Below, one piece after another: positions 1,821-38,918 of a stretch of DNA of 40,387 nt. How positions within the stretch are numbered: the stretch's first letter is position 1; each line of letters starts with the position of its first letter. The notes under the pieces are model-generated. The model searched no databases and was not told the DNA's origin. It worked only from the letters and a program-made list of their open reading frames with translations. The position numbers and the translations under genes were made by a program. Source of the DNA: Bacteroidota bacterium. Its GTDB lineage: Bacteria > Bacteroidota > Ignavibacteria > Kapaibacteriales > UBA2268. Where the stretch lies: NCBI GenBank assembly GCA_021824625.1, contig JAKAKE010000175.1, positions 1 through 40,387 on the forward strand, read 5' to 3'.

Positions 1821-2324
1821 ATGGCAAAGAAAAATATTTTGGTTGGAATAATAATGGGAAGCGATTCCGACCTTCCTACAATGAAGCAAGCCGCTGATGT
1901 GTGCAAAGAGTTCGGAGTTTATTACGAAGTGAAGGTGATTTCAGCCCACCGCAATCCAATGGACGCAATAGAATACGGTGCTAATGCACATAAGAAAGGC
2001 ATGAAAGTTATTATTGCCGGTGCCGGTGGTGCGGCACATCTTCCGGGTGTTCTCGCCGGAAACACACCTCTGCCTGTCATTGGTGTGCCTATTGAGTCAA
2101 AATCCCTTAAAGGCTTGGATTCATTATTGTCAATCGTACAGATGCCCCCCGGTGTGCCGGTGGCAACCGTTGGAATCGGAGGAGGAAAAAATGCCGGATT
2201 GCTTGCTATTCAAATTATCGCTTCTTCGGAGGAATCATTGCTTAAGAAATATCTCAAATACAAAGAAAAGCTCGCCGCTGAATCACGGGCAAAGAATGAT
2301 AATCCCGAAGTGAGGAAAGCGTAA
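1821..2324 (+). CDS. purE: N5-carboxyaminoimidazole ribonucleotide mutase (class I PurE)
   Basis: PurE converts N5-CAIR to CAIR in purine synthesis. The 167-aa length is normal for the bacterial class I enzyme. Visible motifs are the phosphate-binding GSDSD at residues 13-17, SAHRNP at 41-46 with the catalytic His at 43, and [11 protein letters not shown] at about 66-76. [33 protein letters not shown] then leads into the closing helix. PurK is not next door, so purE stands alone here. The ATG at 1821 gives [10 protein letters not shown], a natural start, but I see no strong Shine-Dalgarno. Transcription may be shaped by the inverted repeat about 100 bp upstream. Confidence 0.97.
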
Positions 2325-2326
2325 CC

Positions 2327-2389
2327 AATTACAAATTACGAATTACGAATTACGAATTATGAATTACGAATTATGAATTACGAATTGTG
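2327..2389 (+). repeat. Heptamer tandem repeat, 9 units of AATTACG
   Basis: Immediately after the purE stop there are nine uninterrupted 7-base units: AATTACA, then AATTACG (three), AATTATG, AATTACG, AATTATG, AATTACG and AATTGTG. Variation is confined mostly to positions 5 to 7. It is one of four 7-base tandem arrays in this window. Confidence 0.9.
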
Positions 2390-2400
2390 GTTATACAATA

Positions 2401-2567
2401 ATCCCAAAATATTCATTAGAAACTATGAAATACCTAAGGACTAAAAACAGGCTTGTCATTCTGAGGAGTGAAACGACGAAGAATCTCTTACACGAATGAG
2501 ATGCTTCGACTTAACTCAGCATGACACTTACAAACTATTATAAATTTCCTAATGAATAATTTGGGAT
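2401..2567. mobile_element. 167-bp MITE-like element, copy 1
   Basis: The left end ATCCCAAAATATTCATTAG and the inverted right end ATCCCAAATTATTCATTAGG form terminal inverted repeats of about 22 bases. Inside is a second imperfect inverted repeat (about 2454-2526) that starts TGTCATTCTGAG and ends CTCAGCATGACA. The same 167-bp unit recurs at 32700-32866 and 37394-37560 with few differences. It encodes no protein. This copy fills the gap between the convergent purE and LRR genes, where the core hairpin could also end transcripts. The family is not one I can name. Confidence 0.85.
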
Positions 2568-2582
2568 AATAATTGATGAAGA

Positions 2583-24270: not shown

Positions 24271-24357
24271 TGTCATTCTGAACGAAGTGTAGCGTAGTGA
24301 GGAATCTAATTCTTTGATTACACTCACTTTAGATTCTTCGCTTCGCTCAGAATGACA
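24271..24357. repeat. 87-bp solo inverted repeat related to the core of the 167-bp element
   Basis: The sequence begins TGTCATTCTGAACGAAG and ends CTTCGCTCAGAATGACA, a long imperfect hairpin with GAATCTAA/TTAGATTC inside. The same outer motif is the core of the 167-bp elements, but the ATCCC ends are absent. The rest of the 24199-24521 gap holds a direct repeat GTACAATT(T)CC and a degraded half copy at about 24430-24477. Confidence 0.75.
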
Positions 24358-32679: not shown

Positions 32680-32699
32680 TTTTCGGTATAAATCATATT

Positions 32700-32866
32700 A
32701 TCCCAAAATATTCATTAGAAACTATGAAATACCTATGGACTAAGAACAGGCTTGTCATTCTGAGGAGTGAAACGACGAAGAATCTCTTACAAAAATGAGA
32801 TGCTTCGACTTCGCTCAGCATGACAGTTACAAACTATTATTAATTTCCTAATGAATAATTTGGGAT
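32700..32866. mobile_element. 167-bp MITE-like element, copy 2 (its end encodes the activase C-terminus)
   Basis: Same length and ends as copy 1: ATCCCAAAATATTCATTAG on the left and the inverted repeat on the right. It lies between the convergent methyltransferase and activase genes. The right end overlaps the activase coding region by 27 bases (32840-32866), so the element supplies the last codons and the stop of that gene. Confidence 0.85.
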
Positions 32867-35800
32867 TATCTCTTCTTCAGCCTTCCTAACCAGAAGATGT
32901 ATCCTGTTATGCAGGTTCACCTGGCTGTTGCCTGCATCAATGTCGAGAAATTGAAGATTCAGGCCGGGATGTAAATTCTTAATTGATTTTTCAACCCCGC
33001 GTGCAACGATATGATTTGCTAAACATCCGAATGGCTGCATACAAAGTATATTATTGATTCCTTTTTCTGCAAATGTTAAAATTTCTCCTGAAATCATCCA
33101 CCCTTCACCGAAATAATGATTCGACATACTCATTATCTTTTCTGCTTTCTTTGCAATTTGCCTTACAGGGTGTCTTGCTGAAAAGAATTTAAAATTCTTC
33201 ATAACATTGTCAAACTGTTTGCATCTATAGTCAAAGTATTTTTCAAGTGGTATTGCAAGTTTTCTTGAAATAGTTTTTTTCTCAATTTTAAGTGTATGCT
33301 TATAATTGACATTTATGAGCCATTGAACAAACATATTAATCAGTGGAGGAAATATTACTTCAATCCCTTTCTTAGTAAGTTCTTCTGCAATTCTATGATT
33401 GCCCATCGGATTGTACTTGACATATACTTCACCGACAACACCGATTTTTGGTACTTTGATTCTTTCAATTTCAGTGTTATTGAATTCACTGACTGCAACT
33501 GATAAATGTTTCAGAATACTTTTTAAATCATTTTTTTCAATAAAGGGAGTAATTGTTGAATTATATTTTTCCGCTATTTTCCATGCATCACCCTTGTTTT
33601 TTTCTCTGGGAGCTATAGCATGATACATCTGCGAAATCGCATCACCAAATAAAATACTTGTAATCCCGAGCACAGTAAGTTTTTTCTTACTTAATTTAAA
33701 ACCGGGTTGATCATTTAGTTTATTTGCAAGTGTAATTCCAACGACAGGTACATCGGCGAAACCATTCTTAACGAGTGCTTTCTTAATTAATGAAAGATAA
33801 TTTGAGGCTCTGCACTGTCCGCCTGTTTGCGTTATTCCGACTGCTAATTCATTTGTGTCATACTTCCCTGATTTCAAGGCTTTTAAAATATCGCCTATAA
33901 CAAGAGTTGCCGGATAGCATATCTCATTATTCACGTATTTTAACCCAAGCTCCACTGAATCATGGTCTGAAGGCGGGAGAATTTCTGCTTTATAGCCCAT
34001 AGCAGCAAATGGACCCGTAAGATAAGCAGAATGAAAAGGTGAGAAATAGGGAATAAGAATTTTTCGCTTATTATCTTCTACTAAAAAAGGCTTTGTTGTT
34101 TTTCTTTTTATTTCAATTCCTTTCCTGTTACCATTAAATCCTCTAAGCTTCATTGATTCCACAAGCGAGCGTAGTCTTAATTTCATTGAACCCGTGCTTG
34201 TTAGTTCATCAATTCTGATGAGAGTGAAATTCTTTCCGTAAGATTCAATTATTTCTTTAGTCTCGTCAATTGCAATAGTATCGGGTCCGCATCCGAAATT
34301 ATTCAGTTGAACATACTCGACATCTTTCTGTTTGCCTGCCCATTTTGCAATTCTGTATATTCGGTTTGAATACGCCCATTGGGACAGCACACTTAAATCA
34401 TCCAATTTTTGATTTTCATCGAGAGGAATAGAATCTTCAGTCAAAACATCATATCCTAAATCACAAATCATTTCAGGTATATTATGATTAATAAGCTTAT
34501 CAATCTGATAGGGCCTGCCGGAAAGGAGTATCAATCCCCGTTTTTCAGTTCGTGCATTCCCGATTATTTCTTTGCCCTTAATAATTAATTGATTTTTAAA
34601 ATTCTCGTATTCCATTAATGCCAGACTGAAAGCCTTTTTGAATGTTCTTTTTTTAACATTAAACTGTTTCAGGTAATTGAAACATGCATCTTCAAGAAGT
34701 CCGGCATTTTTAAAATTAATATTCGGTGCATCGAATTTAACATTATGCTTTTTCTCAGGTTCTACTGAACTTCTGATTACATCAGGGTAACCGCTTATGA
34801 CCGGACAATTGTAGCAGTTGGATGTTTCGGGAAATTCATTTTTTTCGAATGTAACTATGGGGTAAAATATTCGGTCAATACCGGAATTTATGAGATTGAT
34901 AATATGTCCGTGAACAATCTTGGCGGGATAGCAAATATTATCCGACATAATTGTTCCACTACCCAAATCACTCATTTCATTTGATGATTTATCCGATAGT
35001 TTAATTTCAATTCCACATTCAACAAACAGTTTTGCCCAAAAAGGAAAATTTTCAAAAAAGTTGAGAACACGTGGTATTCCTAATTTTATTATTGGTTCCG
35101 ATTCGGGTTTTAATTTTCGGTTGAATAGTAATTCAAACTTGTAATCAGGCATATTAAAACCATTTTCTTTTTTTCTGCCTGTATTCGTATATATCTTCTC
35201 ACAACGGTTACCTGTGTTATAAACATTACCATTATCGAATTTCAGTTTACTTACTGTGCAGGTATTATCGCATCCCTTGCAGTGAATGAATTTTACATTA
35301 TAATTACCGGGTGTATCAAGATGAGCAAAAATTCTGAAAGAACCGATGAGATTTTCACCTGATTGAAATTTATCGAGAGCCGTTAATGCCGCACCATAAG
35401 CCCCCATCAGTTCCGAGATGTCGGGATTGACAACTTTTCTTCCAAGCACATTCTCAAATGCCTTCAGCACAGCGATATTTTTAAATGTGCCTCCCTGAAC
35501 GATAATATTTTCGCCAAGAACAGAATTATCAAAAATTTTCAGGACTTTATGCAGGCAATTGTTAATCACAGAATAAGCCAAACCTGCAGATATATCTTCG
35601 GCAGAAGCTCCCTCCCTGAATGACTGCTTCACTTTGGAATTCATAAAGACGGTACATCTTGAGCCAAGGTCGCAGGGCTTGGAAGAATTAACTGCAATAT
35701 CTGCAAATTTGTCAACTGTATAGTTCAGTGAATTTGCAAATGTCTCGATGAATGAACCGCAGCCGGATGAACATGCTTCATTGACTTCAATGTTGCTTAT

Positions 35801-37126
35801 TATCCCATCCTTGACAAAGATTGCTTTCATATCTTGTCCACCGATGTCAAGTATGAATGAAACATTTTCGTTGAATACTTTTGCGGCTCTGTAATGTGAA
35901 AGAGTTTCGACTATGCCGAAATCAAGGGCATAAGCGGCTTTTATAAGTTCCTCGCCATATCCTGTAACGGCACTTGATGTAATTTTAATATCCAATTCAT
36001 TTTTTTCAATTATTTTTTTCAGATTATTCATGCCTTCCCTAACAGTTCCAATCGGGTCGGCATTATTATTTTTATAGAAGTGATAGGCAATTTGTCCAAG
36101 TTCGTCAATTAATACAATCTTTGTTGTTGTAGAGCCAGAGTCTATTCCGAGAAAAGTATTTTTCCCGTTCAGTTCTTTAATAGAAATCCTTTTTGCTCTT
36201 GCAGATGATTTGATTTGCTTCCATTTGAAAAGCTCTACAGTGCTTGAAAACAAAGGCTGAATGCCATTGAGATATGTTCTCTTTGTTTTCTTGTCTTCGG
36301 TTAATTTATTGATTAGAGAATCCAAATTGCTGACATATCGGTCGGAAATATTTGCCAGAGCCGTTCCTGACGCGGCGAGAAGTTCAGGATTCCGCATTTG
36401 AATAATTTGATTTTCATCAAATCCAAACAATCTGCTTACGGTTTTTCTAAGTTCAGTTAGAAATGTTAGTGGTCCACCAGATAGAATAATCTTGGGATAA
36501 AAATCAGAACCATGAAGAAGAGAATTCTTGATTTGAATGGCAATCGCATGGAAAACAGAGGCGGCAATATCCTCTTTAGGTATTTCCCTGCTCAATAGGT
36601 TTTGTACATCTGTTTTAGCGAACACTCCACAACGGGAAGCAATAGGATGTATTTCCTTATACCCTTTTGCAAGTTCATTTAATTTTTCAAGAGAGATATT
36701 AAGCAGCGAAGCCATTTGGTCAATGAAAGCTCCGGTTCCTCCTGCGCAACTGCTGTTCATTCGGATGTCATGCCCAGACTTTTCATTGAAGAAAATGATT
36801 TTTGAGTCTTCGCCTCCAATGTCAATCAATGTCCTGGATTCAGGATAAAATCTTGAGGTATATTCAGCTGATGCAATAAGTTCCTGAACAAAAGTAATAC
36901 CGAGTTTTTCGGATAAACCCATACCTGCACTACCGGTAATGGCTATGCTCAATTCCTGATTTCCTATTTCACTTTTTGTATCTTTTAGAATATCAAGTAA
37001 TGTCCCTTTGATATTACCATAATGTCTTCGGTAATCAGAAAATACTGTATTGTTTTTATTATCGAGGACAACTACCTTTGAGGTAGTTGAACCAATATCT
37101 ATACCGGTTAATAATTTTTCAATCAT
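32840..37126 (-). CDS. Giant acyl-CoA dehydratase activase / HgdC-HgdB-like fusion protein
   Basis: This 1428-aa chain joins two ASKHA activator domains (BcrAD/BadFG type) to DUF2229 and a HgdB-like dehydratase domain. Domain one opens GIDIGSTTSK (8-17) with SSCAGGTGAF; domain two repeats with GIDSGSTTTK and ACSSGCGSF, and each has a second Cys (SRCGVF, SRCTVF) for the bridging [4Fe-4S] cluster. A CxxxC motif (GCDNTC, about 617-622) follows. In 2-hydroxyacyl-CoA dehydratase systems such proteins use ATP to drive a low-potential electron. No dehydratase subunit genes adjoin it, so the partner is unknown. The final residues IPNYSLGN and the stop come from the repeat element. The start ATG 37126 is in an AT-rich upstream region. 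Confidence 0.9.
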   Translation of the reverse strand: MIEKLLTGIDIGSTTSKVVVLDNKNNTVFSDYRRHYGNIKGTLLDILKDTKSEIGNQELSIAITGSAGMGLSEKLGITFVQELIASAEYTSRFYPESRTLIDIGGEDSKIIFFNEKSGHDIRMNSSCAGGTGAFIDQMASLLNISLEKLNELAKGYKEIHPIASRCGVFAKTDVQNLLSREIPKEDIAASVFHAIAIQIKNSLLHGSDFYPKIILSGGPLTFLTELRKTVSRLFGFDENQIIQMRNPELLAASGTALANISDRYVSNLDSLINKLTEDKKTKRTYLNGIQPLFSSTVELFKWKQIKSSARAKRISIKELNGKNTFLGIDSGSTTTKIVLIDELGQIAYHFYKNNNADPIGTVREGMNNLKKIIEKNELDIKITSSAVTGYGEELIKAAYALDFGIVETLSHYRAAKVFNENVSFILDIGGQDMKAIFVKDGIISNIEVNEACSSGCGSFIETFANSLNYTVDKFADIAVNSSKPCDLGSRCTVFMNSKVKQSFREGASAEDISAGLAYSVINNCLHKVLKIFDNSVLGENIIVQGGTFKNIAVLKAFENVLGRKVVNPDISELMGAYGAALTALDKFQSGENLIGSFRIFAHLDTPGNYNVKFIHCKGCDNTCTVSKLKFDNGNVYNTGNRCEKIYTNTGRKKENGFNMPDYKFELLFNRKLKPESEPIIKLGIPRVLNFFENFPFWAKLFVECGIEIKLSDKSSNEMSDLGSGTIMSDNICYPAKIVHGHIINLINSGIDRIFYPIVTFEKNEFPETSNCYNCPVISGYPDVIRSSVEPEKKHNVKFDAPNINFKNAGLLEDACFNYLKQFNVKKRTFKKAFSLALMEYENFKNQLIIKGKEIIGNARTEKRGLILLSGRPYQIDKLINHNIPEMICDLGYDVLTEDSIPLDENQKLDDLSVLSQWAYSNRIYRIAKWAGKQKDVEYVQLNNFGCGPDTIAIDETKEIIESYGKNFTLIRIDELTSTGSMKLRLRSLVESMKLRGFNGNRKGIEIKRKTTKPFLVEDNKRKILIPYFSPFHSAYLTGPFAAMGYKAEILPPSDHDSVELGLKYVNNEICYPATLVIGDILKALKSGKYDTNELAVGITQTGGQCRASNYLSLIKKALVKNGFADVPVVGITLANKLNDQPGFKLSKKKLTVLGITSILFGDAISQMYHAIAPREKNKGDAWKIAEKYNSTITPFIEKNDLKSILKHLSVAVSEFNNTEIERIKVPKIGVVGEVYVKYNPMGNHRIAEELTKKGIEVIFPPLINMFVQWLINVNYKHTLKIEKKTISRKLAIPLEKYFDYRCKQFDNVMKNFKFFSARHPVRQIAKKAEKIMSMSNHYFGEGWMISGEILTFAEKGINNILCMQPFGCLANHIVARGVEKSIKNLHPGLNLQFLDIDAGNSQVNLHNRIHLLVRKAEEEIIPNYSLGN

Positions 37127-37296: not shown

Positions 37297-37374
37297 TGTC
37301 ATTCCGGGCGCAGCGAAGAATCTAATTCCTTCAAAATCAAAGCAAGAAGATTCTTCACTTCGTTCAGAATTACA
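37297..37374. repeat. 78-bp solo inverted repeat related to the element core
   Basis: Starts TGTCATTCCGGGCGCAGCG and ends CTTCGTTCAGAATTACA, with GAAGAATCTAA and AAGAAGATTCTTC inside. Like the 24271 repeat it lacks the ATCCC ends. It is 19 bp from copy 3, so two related repeats are adjacent here. Confidence 0.7.
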
Positions 37375-37393
37375 ATTTTTCAGAAGTTTCATA

Positions 37394-37560
37394 AACCCAA
37401 AATATTCATTAGAAACTATGAAATACCTAAGGACTAAGAACAGGCTTGTCATTCTGAGGAGTGAAACGACGAAGAATCTCTTACACGAATGAGATGCTTC
37501 GACTTCGCTAAGCATGAAACTTACAAACTATTATGAATTTCCTAATGAATAATTTGGGAT
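37394..37560. mobile_element. 167-bp MITE-like element, copy 3
   Basis: Again exactly 167 bp. The left end is slightly altered (AACCC instead of ATCCC), while the right end TTTGGGAT is intact. It lies 77 bp before the FliK-like gene, in a divergent gap, so unlike the other two it cannot simply be a terminator between convergent genes. The rest of 37127-37637 holds the solo hairpin and AT-rich sequence, with no gene. Confidence 0.82.
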
Positions 37561-37637
37561 AAAATAATATTACCAAATAATTATCTTATATGATGTTTGG
37601 TTTAGATTTTGTAGTTTTAATTTATTTGATATGAATT

Positions 37638-38918
37638 ATGGCTGATTATATAGGCATAGCGGAAGGAGAAGGCATAAAGCCGTTAAATCCTCATGAAAGG
37701 AAGGAGAAGGATTACCAAAGACTACCTTACAGCCAAAGGGAAAGAGAAATTAAGCTTAAGGTAGGCGAGGTTTTGCAGGCAACAATTCTCGAAGTCCTTT
37801 CTTCGCAGGAAGCCATTGTCCAGCTTCCAACAGGGACAGTTCATGCCTTTATTCACGGCAGGCTTAAAAAAGGGGATGTTGTTTTTCTTCGTGTCCACGA
37901 AATTTCACCTAATTTAATTCTAAGAATACATTCTGTATCCTACATTAAAAATGGAGTGGAGCTTTCCCTGATTGAAATCCTCAGAGTACTGGATTTGCCT
38001 GAATCTCAATTTTTCAGAGAAACTGCAAATTTTTTAAAGAAGCACAGAACCTACATTTTCCGTGACGAAGCCTTGCTCATTGAGAATTCATTTACAGCAA
38101 TTGAAGAATCAATCAGAAAAGATTATAATTCGGATGTGTTCTTTTCAGCAATAATTTTTATGCATGAAAACAAGTTACCCGTTGATTCAAGAATATTTCT
38201 AAAAATTGCACCTGTTCTGTCCGGCAATGATTTTGTCTTAAATTTATTGAAAGAACTTGAAAATTCTTATTCAAATCTGCCGGATTCATTAAAAATTAAA
38301 CTTGAATCATTCTTCCGCCTGATTAAATCAGAGTCAACACCTTTAAATAAACTTCTTGACGTTTTTCTAATTGGTTCAACAAACAGTGAAGAGCCTTCAT
38401 TTTATGAAAGTTTAATTGAAATATTATTAATCAAGGATGAAAATACGACAAAAGAAATTAGAAAAGTGAAAGACCTTGCAAAAAGATTGATTCAGGTGAT
38501 TGAGGGACAGCACTTTATCAATTCATTCGGAATAAATAATAATTCAGCATTGTATTTTTATTTACCATTTCCATATCAAAATTCATATTCGGCCTCCAAG
38601 TTCATAATTAAAAGCAGAACTGTTTCTAAGAAAACTGATAAGAGAATAATTAAATTTTCAATAATAACATCTACAAATAAACTTGGTGATGTTGTTACAT
38701 CCGCAGATTTAACTACAGGAGCGATTAATATAAACTTTTTGACAAGTTCAAAAGATTTGGCTAATTTATTCTCAAAACACATTGCTGAATTTAAAGAAAA
38801 ACTTAAATTAGGAGTTATGGATGTGAGTGTAACAGCAGATAAAGATGTTCAAGTAACAAGGCAAGGCACTATAGATGAAGGCAGGCAGCAGCCAACAAAT
38901 TTTTCAATAGTTGTTTAA
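37638..38918 (+). CDS. FliK-like protein (flagellar hook-length-control C-terminal domain type)
   Basis: This 426-aa cytoplasmic-type protein has no signal or membrane segment. Residues 40-100 (GEVLQATILEVLSSQEAIVQLPTG, GRLKKGDVVFLRVHEISPNLILRI) form a beta-barrel-like module seen at the N-terminus of FliK-related proteins. The middle (about 110-300) is helical. The C-terminal part (FYLPFPYQ, IIKFSIITSTNKLGDVVTSADLTTGAININFLTSS, then a helix and GVMDVSVTADK) resembles the FliK C-terminal domain, a beta-strand pair, long helix and final strand. No flagellar gene is in this window. The assignment is from pattern only. It is followed by the AI-2E gene after 18 bp, so the two are co-transcribed. 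Confidence 0.55.
   Translation: MADYIGIAEGEGIKPLNPHERKEKDYQRLPYSQREREIKLKVGEVLQATILEVLSSQEAIVQLPTGTVHAFIHGRLKKGDVVFLRVHEISPNLILRIHSVSYIKNGVELSLIEILRVLDLPESQFFRETANFLKKHRTYIFRDEALLIENSFTAIEESIRKDYNSDVFFSAIIFMHENKLPVDSRIFLKIAPVLSGNDFVLNLLKELENSYSNLPDSLKIKLESFFRLIKSESTPLNKLLDVFLIGSTNSEEPSFYESLIEILLIKDENTTKEIRKVKDLAKRLIQVIEGQHFINSFGINNNSALYFYLPFPYQNSYSASKFIIKSRTVSKKTDKRIIKFSIITSTNKLGDVVTSADLTTGAININFLTSSKDLANLFSKHIAEFKEKLKLGVMDVSVTADKDVQVTRQGTIDEGRQQPTNFSIVV

Follow-up and report, generated by a model that had tools for sequence, protein, structure and literature searches.

MITEs with the ends of an insertion sequence (IS) family are a kind of mobile DNA already known, of which the 163-bp element described here is a new example. 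MITECca01 of Cardinium, as presented in excerpts of PMC9769881, is an IS982-derived element of ~240 bp whose parental IS is in the same genome. Going by those excerpts, the 163-bp element is like it in being short and gene-less, with IS-family ends and many copies in one genome. They differ in parent family, probably IS1380 here as against IS982, and in that IS982 is present in Cardinium whereas no parent was found in the present case. Within the IS1380 family, members such as those of the ISPme1 and ISEcp1 modules mobilise adjacent DNA by misrecognising ends (excerpts of PMC9330008). As far as these excerpts go, such modules are also a case of IS1380 transposition taking in non-IS DNA, but they hold a complete IS together with genes next to it, whereas the 163-bp element has no IS and carries a palindrome only. 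Full-text searches of openly accessible literature, and the excerpts consulted, yielded no IS1380-derived MITE.

IS1380 insertion sequences proper (PF13701, NF033539) are 1.4–1.5 kb long and, in seven related genomes, have ends that start CCC and extend to CATTAG at base 17, as does the MITE; at 163 bp the MITE lacks their transposase gene. Another resemblance is to REP/BIME sequences with their RAYTs, which are interspersed intergenic hairpins, as is the inner repeat of the element. We know of no target duplication or transposon ends for REP/BIME palindromes, and, unlike in those systems, no Y1 gene adjoins the repeat here.

The window, the whole stretch of 40,387 nucleotides analysed, is contig 12 of a 3.58-Mb MAG (231 contigs, 96% complete). 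An earlier note on this DNA had described three 167-bp copies of a non-coding unit in it. The three copies are where the note placed them and their origin by chance is excluded. The repeat is real, but the element proper is 163 bp, CCC...GGG, in all three: the count of 167 took in two duplication bases per side, and the outermost bases of that longer version vary (AT or AA) because they are part of a 5-bp target duplication. The duplication is perfect at each window copy. This 163-bp repeat is very probably an IS1380-family MITE on which a transposase acted in trans. The copies and their parts are as follows.

2398..2402, no strand: target duplication ATAAT, left side of copy 1
2403..2565, plus strand: MITE copy 1, 163 bp, flanked by purE and a leucine-rich-repeat gene
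2455..2525, no strand: inner palindrome of copy 1, GTCATTCTGAG...CTCAGCATGAC
2566..2570, no strand: target duplication ATAAT, right side of copy 1
32697..32701, no strand: target duplication ATTAT, left side of copy 2
32702..32864, plus strand: MITE copy 2, 163 bp, flanked by an Eco57I-like methylase gene and a BcrAD/BadFG-DUF2229 activase gene
32754..32824, no strand: inner palindrome of copy 2
32865..32869, no strand: target duplication ATTAT, right side of copy 2
37391..37395, no strand: target duplication ATAAA, left side of copy 3
37396..37558, plus strand: MITE copy 3, 163 bp, flanked by the activase gene start and a gene at 37638
37448..37518, no strand: inner palindrome of copy 3
37559..37563, no strand: target duplication ATAAA, right side of copy 3

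Copies 2 and 3 are respectively 94% and 96% identical to copy 1 over 172 nt. The inverted ends, put earlier at about 22 bases, are a 17-bp terminal inverted repeat, CCCAAAWTATTCATTAG, whose left and right versions match at 16 of 17 positions in all three window copies; alignment of the copies with their flanks shows the 17-bp ends to be kept across the genome. The nested hairpin proposed for the unit stands. An inner inverted repeat occupies element positions 53–123 and the whole folds around it (z −6.7 for copy 1 folded as DNA and −6.5 for copy 2 folded as RNA, with 0 of 200 dinucleotide shuffles as good in either case), with the qualification that the inner hairpin belongs to a repeat family which the genome also has apart from the element. 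The lack of coding capacity also holds, in that no ORF of 100 aa can fit within 163 bp; a 102-aa stop-to-stop frame that overlaps copy 3 looks like chance. The activase ORF (BcrAD/BadFG-DUF2229; 32840–37126, minus strand) has its last codons and stop inside copy 2, at window 32840–32864. Directly before copy 1, at window 2324–2379, is a short AT-rich tandem repeat of TACGAAT-like units.

A search of the whole genome, proposed in the earlier note, gave at least 33 BLAST matches to copy 1 at E<=0.001 (scoring covered 40 of the 89 first-look candidates). Among loci L001–L022, 19 complete single copies were measured: 18 are 163 bp and one is 162 bp, with a mean distance to the consensus of 3.6 bases (2.2%) and a worst case of 11. 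One additional copy, C109, is tandemly expanded to 387 bp; it and C149 hold tandem forms of a ~118-bp inner unit. Counting the 387-bp copy, an exact 5-bp duplication is kept in 8 of 20 complete copies and absent from the other 12, where 2.35 would be expected with shuffled flanks (p 0.0007). A 3-bp target duplication (TWA) was considered and rejected, as 5 bp is the only length at which exact flank matches are conspicuous. The recent spread that had been suggested for the unit is only partly borne out, going by the distance to consensus and the fraction of duplications still exact. Its mobilisation by a trans-acting transposase is supported by the target duplications and by the constancy of its ends and length.

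Duplications were also counted in a congener of the window's genome, G003, whose elements are as in MHAY01, Ignavibacteria RIFOXYC2_FULL_35_21. At 19 of 20 places sampled there was at least one end pair, for 21 pairs in total (one an alternative pairing), and 17 of the 21 have an exact 5-bp duplication, against a shuffled mean of 4.7 and with none of 20,000 shuffles reaching that number. These elements are mosaics with a similar palindrome core and several left and right arms, and in some of them the loop holds another small palindrome.

How such a unit would have moved can be put in terms of its ends. A DDE transposase of IS1380 type, provided in trans, would act on the 17-bp ends; the element inserts into AT-rich 5-mers, mostly WTWAW, with duplication of 5 bp. 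The element is short, non-coding and multi-copy, with terminal inverted repeats, a duplication of fixed length and ends like those of autonomous IS1380 elements, none of them identical. The same genome has yielded no autonomous IS1380, whose presence is usual for a derived MITE and not required.

The link to IS1380 comes from the genomes of relatives. A pattern search for the ends, covering 54 family genomes, singled out G019 and G071, in which many ends lie near contig edges, as expected from a collapsed multicopy IS. In G071 (L217) a 395-aa frame is an IS1380 transposase (PF13701 4.5e-39; NF033539 1.9e-63, over cut-off), and its stop codon falls within the CCCGAATTATGCATTAG inverted repeat, at a distance of 6 bp from the element edge. 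Decayed IS1380 copies, each with one such end, are present in G060 (CCCAAATTATGCATTAG, PF13701 1e-20) and G012 (CCCAGATTAATCATTAG, PF13701 1e-12). When 395 genomes of the phylum were searched at the protein level, 21 had matches, and eight of the matching loci were scanned for ends. Both ends are present at four of the eight, spaced 1398–1481 bp: in G051 (CCCAGATTACGCATTAG; NF033539 1e-78), G277 (CCCAAAATTGTCATTAG; 2e-72 or so) and G409 (CCCAAATCGGTCATTAG; 1e-64), all over cut-off, and in G395 (CCCAGATTACGCATTAG on the better side; 6e-44, interrupted and under cut-off). The inverted repeats of three of these four were recovered also by a pattern-free search; the other four scanned loci (L239, L240, L241, L243) had no convincing end pair.

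IS1380 genes or fragments with such ends are therefore known from seven related genomes, an eighth (G019) being suggestive only. The MITE ends agree with the eight IS1380 ends compared at 13–16 of 17 bases, and in the genomes searched no IS was found with ends identical to those of the MITE. The transposase stop lies within the terminal inverted repeat in five of six IS1380 copies checked (L217, L226, L236, L237, L238), which means that the end sequence is also coding. In G019, contig ends lead from CCCAAATAATTCATTAG into frames that by eye look like transposase termini, but they match weakly (E 0.097) and PF13701 gives no match. The same 17 bases terminate short elements in G004, where elements of ~350–370 bp (e.g. 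L038:499-864, L045:1503-1854) have CCCAAATAATTCATTAG-type ends around several GATGTCCTACACC palindromes.

A 5-bp duplication is described for IS1247, of the IS1380 family (excerpts of PMC3281130). Both flanks could be read at three of the IS1380 copies here, and no duplication among them is exact: two are off by one base and one by two.

The CCC..CATTAG type of end belongs to part of the IS1380 family, as the copies in G028 and G030 do not have MITE-like ends. G028 is the strongest of five family genomes over the PF13701 cut-off and has no such end within 3 mismatches. In G030, also over that cut-off, three IS1380 N-terminal fragments (L227, L232, L234) share another end upstream, CCCCAATAATTCAC (also given as CCCCAATAATTCACAAATAAACAAAC), a distinct IS1380 end type. 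Fifteen further genomes (12 reached via short-element loci, together with G411, G004 and G019) gave any PF13701 match in four and one over cut-off in two, and none of eight PF13701 loci from them has a good end. Confidence in the IS1380 reading is slightly lowered by the two IS1380-bearing family genomes without the ends and by the G019 link, which is suggestive only.

The earlier note had looked to a transposase gene bounded by matching ends. Its most likely family is IS1380, to judge from the relatives; in the window's own genome (231 contigs, 96% complete) neither PF13701 nor the G071 (L217) protein has a match, and no copy of the transposase turned up. Short-read MAGs often lack multicopy IS, so this absence is weak evidence, and the transposase source may have been lost, left unbinned or resided in another cell. 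That an IS1380 transposase is the mover of the 163-bp unit is what we infer from the ends.

The mover could instead belong to a related DDE family (IS1634, or IS4/IS5-like), though this is unlikely. The three congeners G001–G003 have no IS1380 transposase, nor was an IS1380 enzyme found in the four genomes of the genus, and the ORF found in G003 is of IS1634 type: a 494-aa transposase of that family, over cut-off. That IS1634 copy, however, has other inverted ends, ATTAAACCATAACTTTTCC.., and nothing of CCC..CATTAG type at up to 4 mismatches, and it is IS1380 genes or fragments that such ends adjoin in the seven genomes. The IS1634-family ORF (C102, L230:1366-2847) is open and has its own inverted repeats near both ends.

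On the IS1380 reading the element would be a composite, with IS1380 ends around a 71-bp host-type palindrome; it is read in this way because palindromes of that kind are also scattered alone through the same genome. Half-sites of TGTCATTCTGAG type that lack the variant arm of the MITE number 85 in the genome, with 0 for a reversed-pattern control, so the inner palindrome occurs outside the MITE as well. It may have come into the element from the genome. The letters of the palindrome, used as a literature query, brought up no relevant paper. Stand-alone half-sites of this type are at two places within the window.

24272..24356, no strand: stand-alone inner-type palindrome without IS1380-type ends, left half at 5 mismatches, right half also recovered among the half-sites
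37298..37373, no strand: stand-alone inner-type palindrome without IS1380-type ends, beside copy 3

The abundance of the palindrome on its own, in a genome with seven Y1_Tnp matches, is what would be looked for if the repeat were an extragenic palindrome of REP/BIME type that a Y1 transposase (RAYT) had spread, its outer ends being incidental. This is very improbable. None of the seven Y1 loci is flanked by the palindrome, up to 1.5 kb a side, and 17-bp ends with 5-bp target duplications are, as far as we are aware, unlike what is expected of REP. The target duplications are the reason for disfavouring it, and they bear on the 163-bp unit only. Least probable of all is that the copies are retained functional structures, such as terminators or RNA elements, which ordinary recombination has duplicated: the copies do form strong hairpins, and 17 of the 19 measured, examined with their flanking DNA, are clear of any ORF of >=100 aa, but none of the three window copies matches Rfam at gathering score (the window gives two tRNAs only), the flanks are unrelated and bear 5-bp duplications, G003 included, and elsewhere similar ends enclose unrelated middles.

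Those other middles were met in a cross-phylum sample of at least 107 stretches from one scan, in which many records are MAGs and some taxon labels may be wrong. Ends of the form CCC[AG][AG]AWTATKCATTAG, with AT-rich 5-bp duplications, are in records that carry the labels Ignavibacteria, Bacteroidota, Gamma- and Betaproteobacteria and Campylobacteraceae. The middles between them are unrelated and often hairpin-rich. For 55 end pairs (these take in alternative pairings, a few spurious ones and those of the window's own genome) the interiors fold with a median z of −2.4, 21 of them below −3; random windows give −0.1, with 2 of 50 below −3. Grouped by their interiors, the 46 distinct elements whose duplications are exact form 14 clusters that are unlinked by BLASTN at E 1e-4. 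One enclosed sequence, GTTCGACAAGCTCACCACGAACGG, has 19 and 26 occurrences in the genomes of a gammaproteobacterial locus (L075) and a Sulfuricellaceae locus (L157), counted at up to 3 mismatches and with copies inside elements included; there are none in two other genomes compared, whose elements hold other middles. In KatS3mg027, five 8-kb loci have seven half-sites, of which six are enclosed by paired ends and the seventh lies just within a lone end at the edge of its locus, and no stand-alone palindrome copy, in what is a biased sample as the loci were chosen by their ends. Viral contigs gave three matches to the ends, none with a convincing partner, and the best of them (L065, 4 + 0 mismatches) is without duplication.

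A tentative generalisation, which we hold to be possible though on balance doubtful, is that IS1380 transposases, which are reported to accept wrong partner ends, repeatedly form mini-elements around the interspersed palindromes of the host. Capture of this sort would explain why similar ends with AT-rich duplications are found around unrelated middles across taxa. If it occurs, IS1380 ends would be a vehicle that spreads bacterial intergenic palindromes, and part of the bacterial interspersed palindromes would have a testable origin; the palindromes may have been captured by the elements or may have been spread by them. With the 163-bp repeat, a previously unnamed unit gains a likely parent family and IS1380 is indicated as a source of MITEs, and mini-elements in several phyla have one kind of ends in common.

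Variation among the copies of the window's genome is concentrated at element positions 110–125 (window 2512–2527, 32811–32826 and 37505–37520). Of 81 differences from the consensus in 29 copies or fragments, 39 are there, in a count that takes tandem units apart although they share one change. Per-site variation is ~8% at these positions versus 1% elsewhere, and 25 of the 29 have at least one change in them. In several contigs the contig end falls inside an element copy, and contigs that end within a copy hold 111–129 bp of it. Perhaps only copies with a middle variant assemble. That explanation predicts symmetry, whereas the excess is one-sided, and G003 copies are without such variation in that arm.

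A 92-bp element in G411 (L299:1426-1517), with an exact TTAAA duplication, is without the ~196-bp palindromic middle of its 246–288-bp relatives. By eye, the extra DNA of the relatives looks flanked by GCACCG direct repeats, and the difference may be either an insertion or a deletion. Helical phasing of element lengths (163–167, 174–177, 186–187, 196–198) was considered and rejected: with one length per interior cluster for the 14 clusters, n*R^2 is 2.9 at 10.5 bp and does not rise there above its values at neighbouring periods. Members of 163–167 bp occur in five of the 14 clusters.
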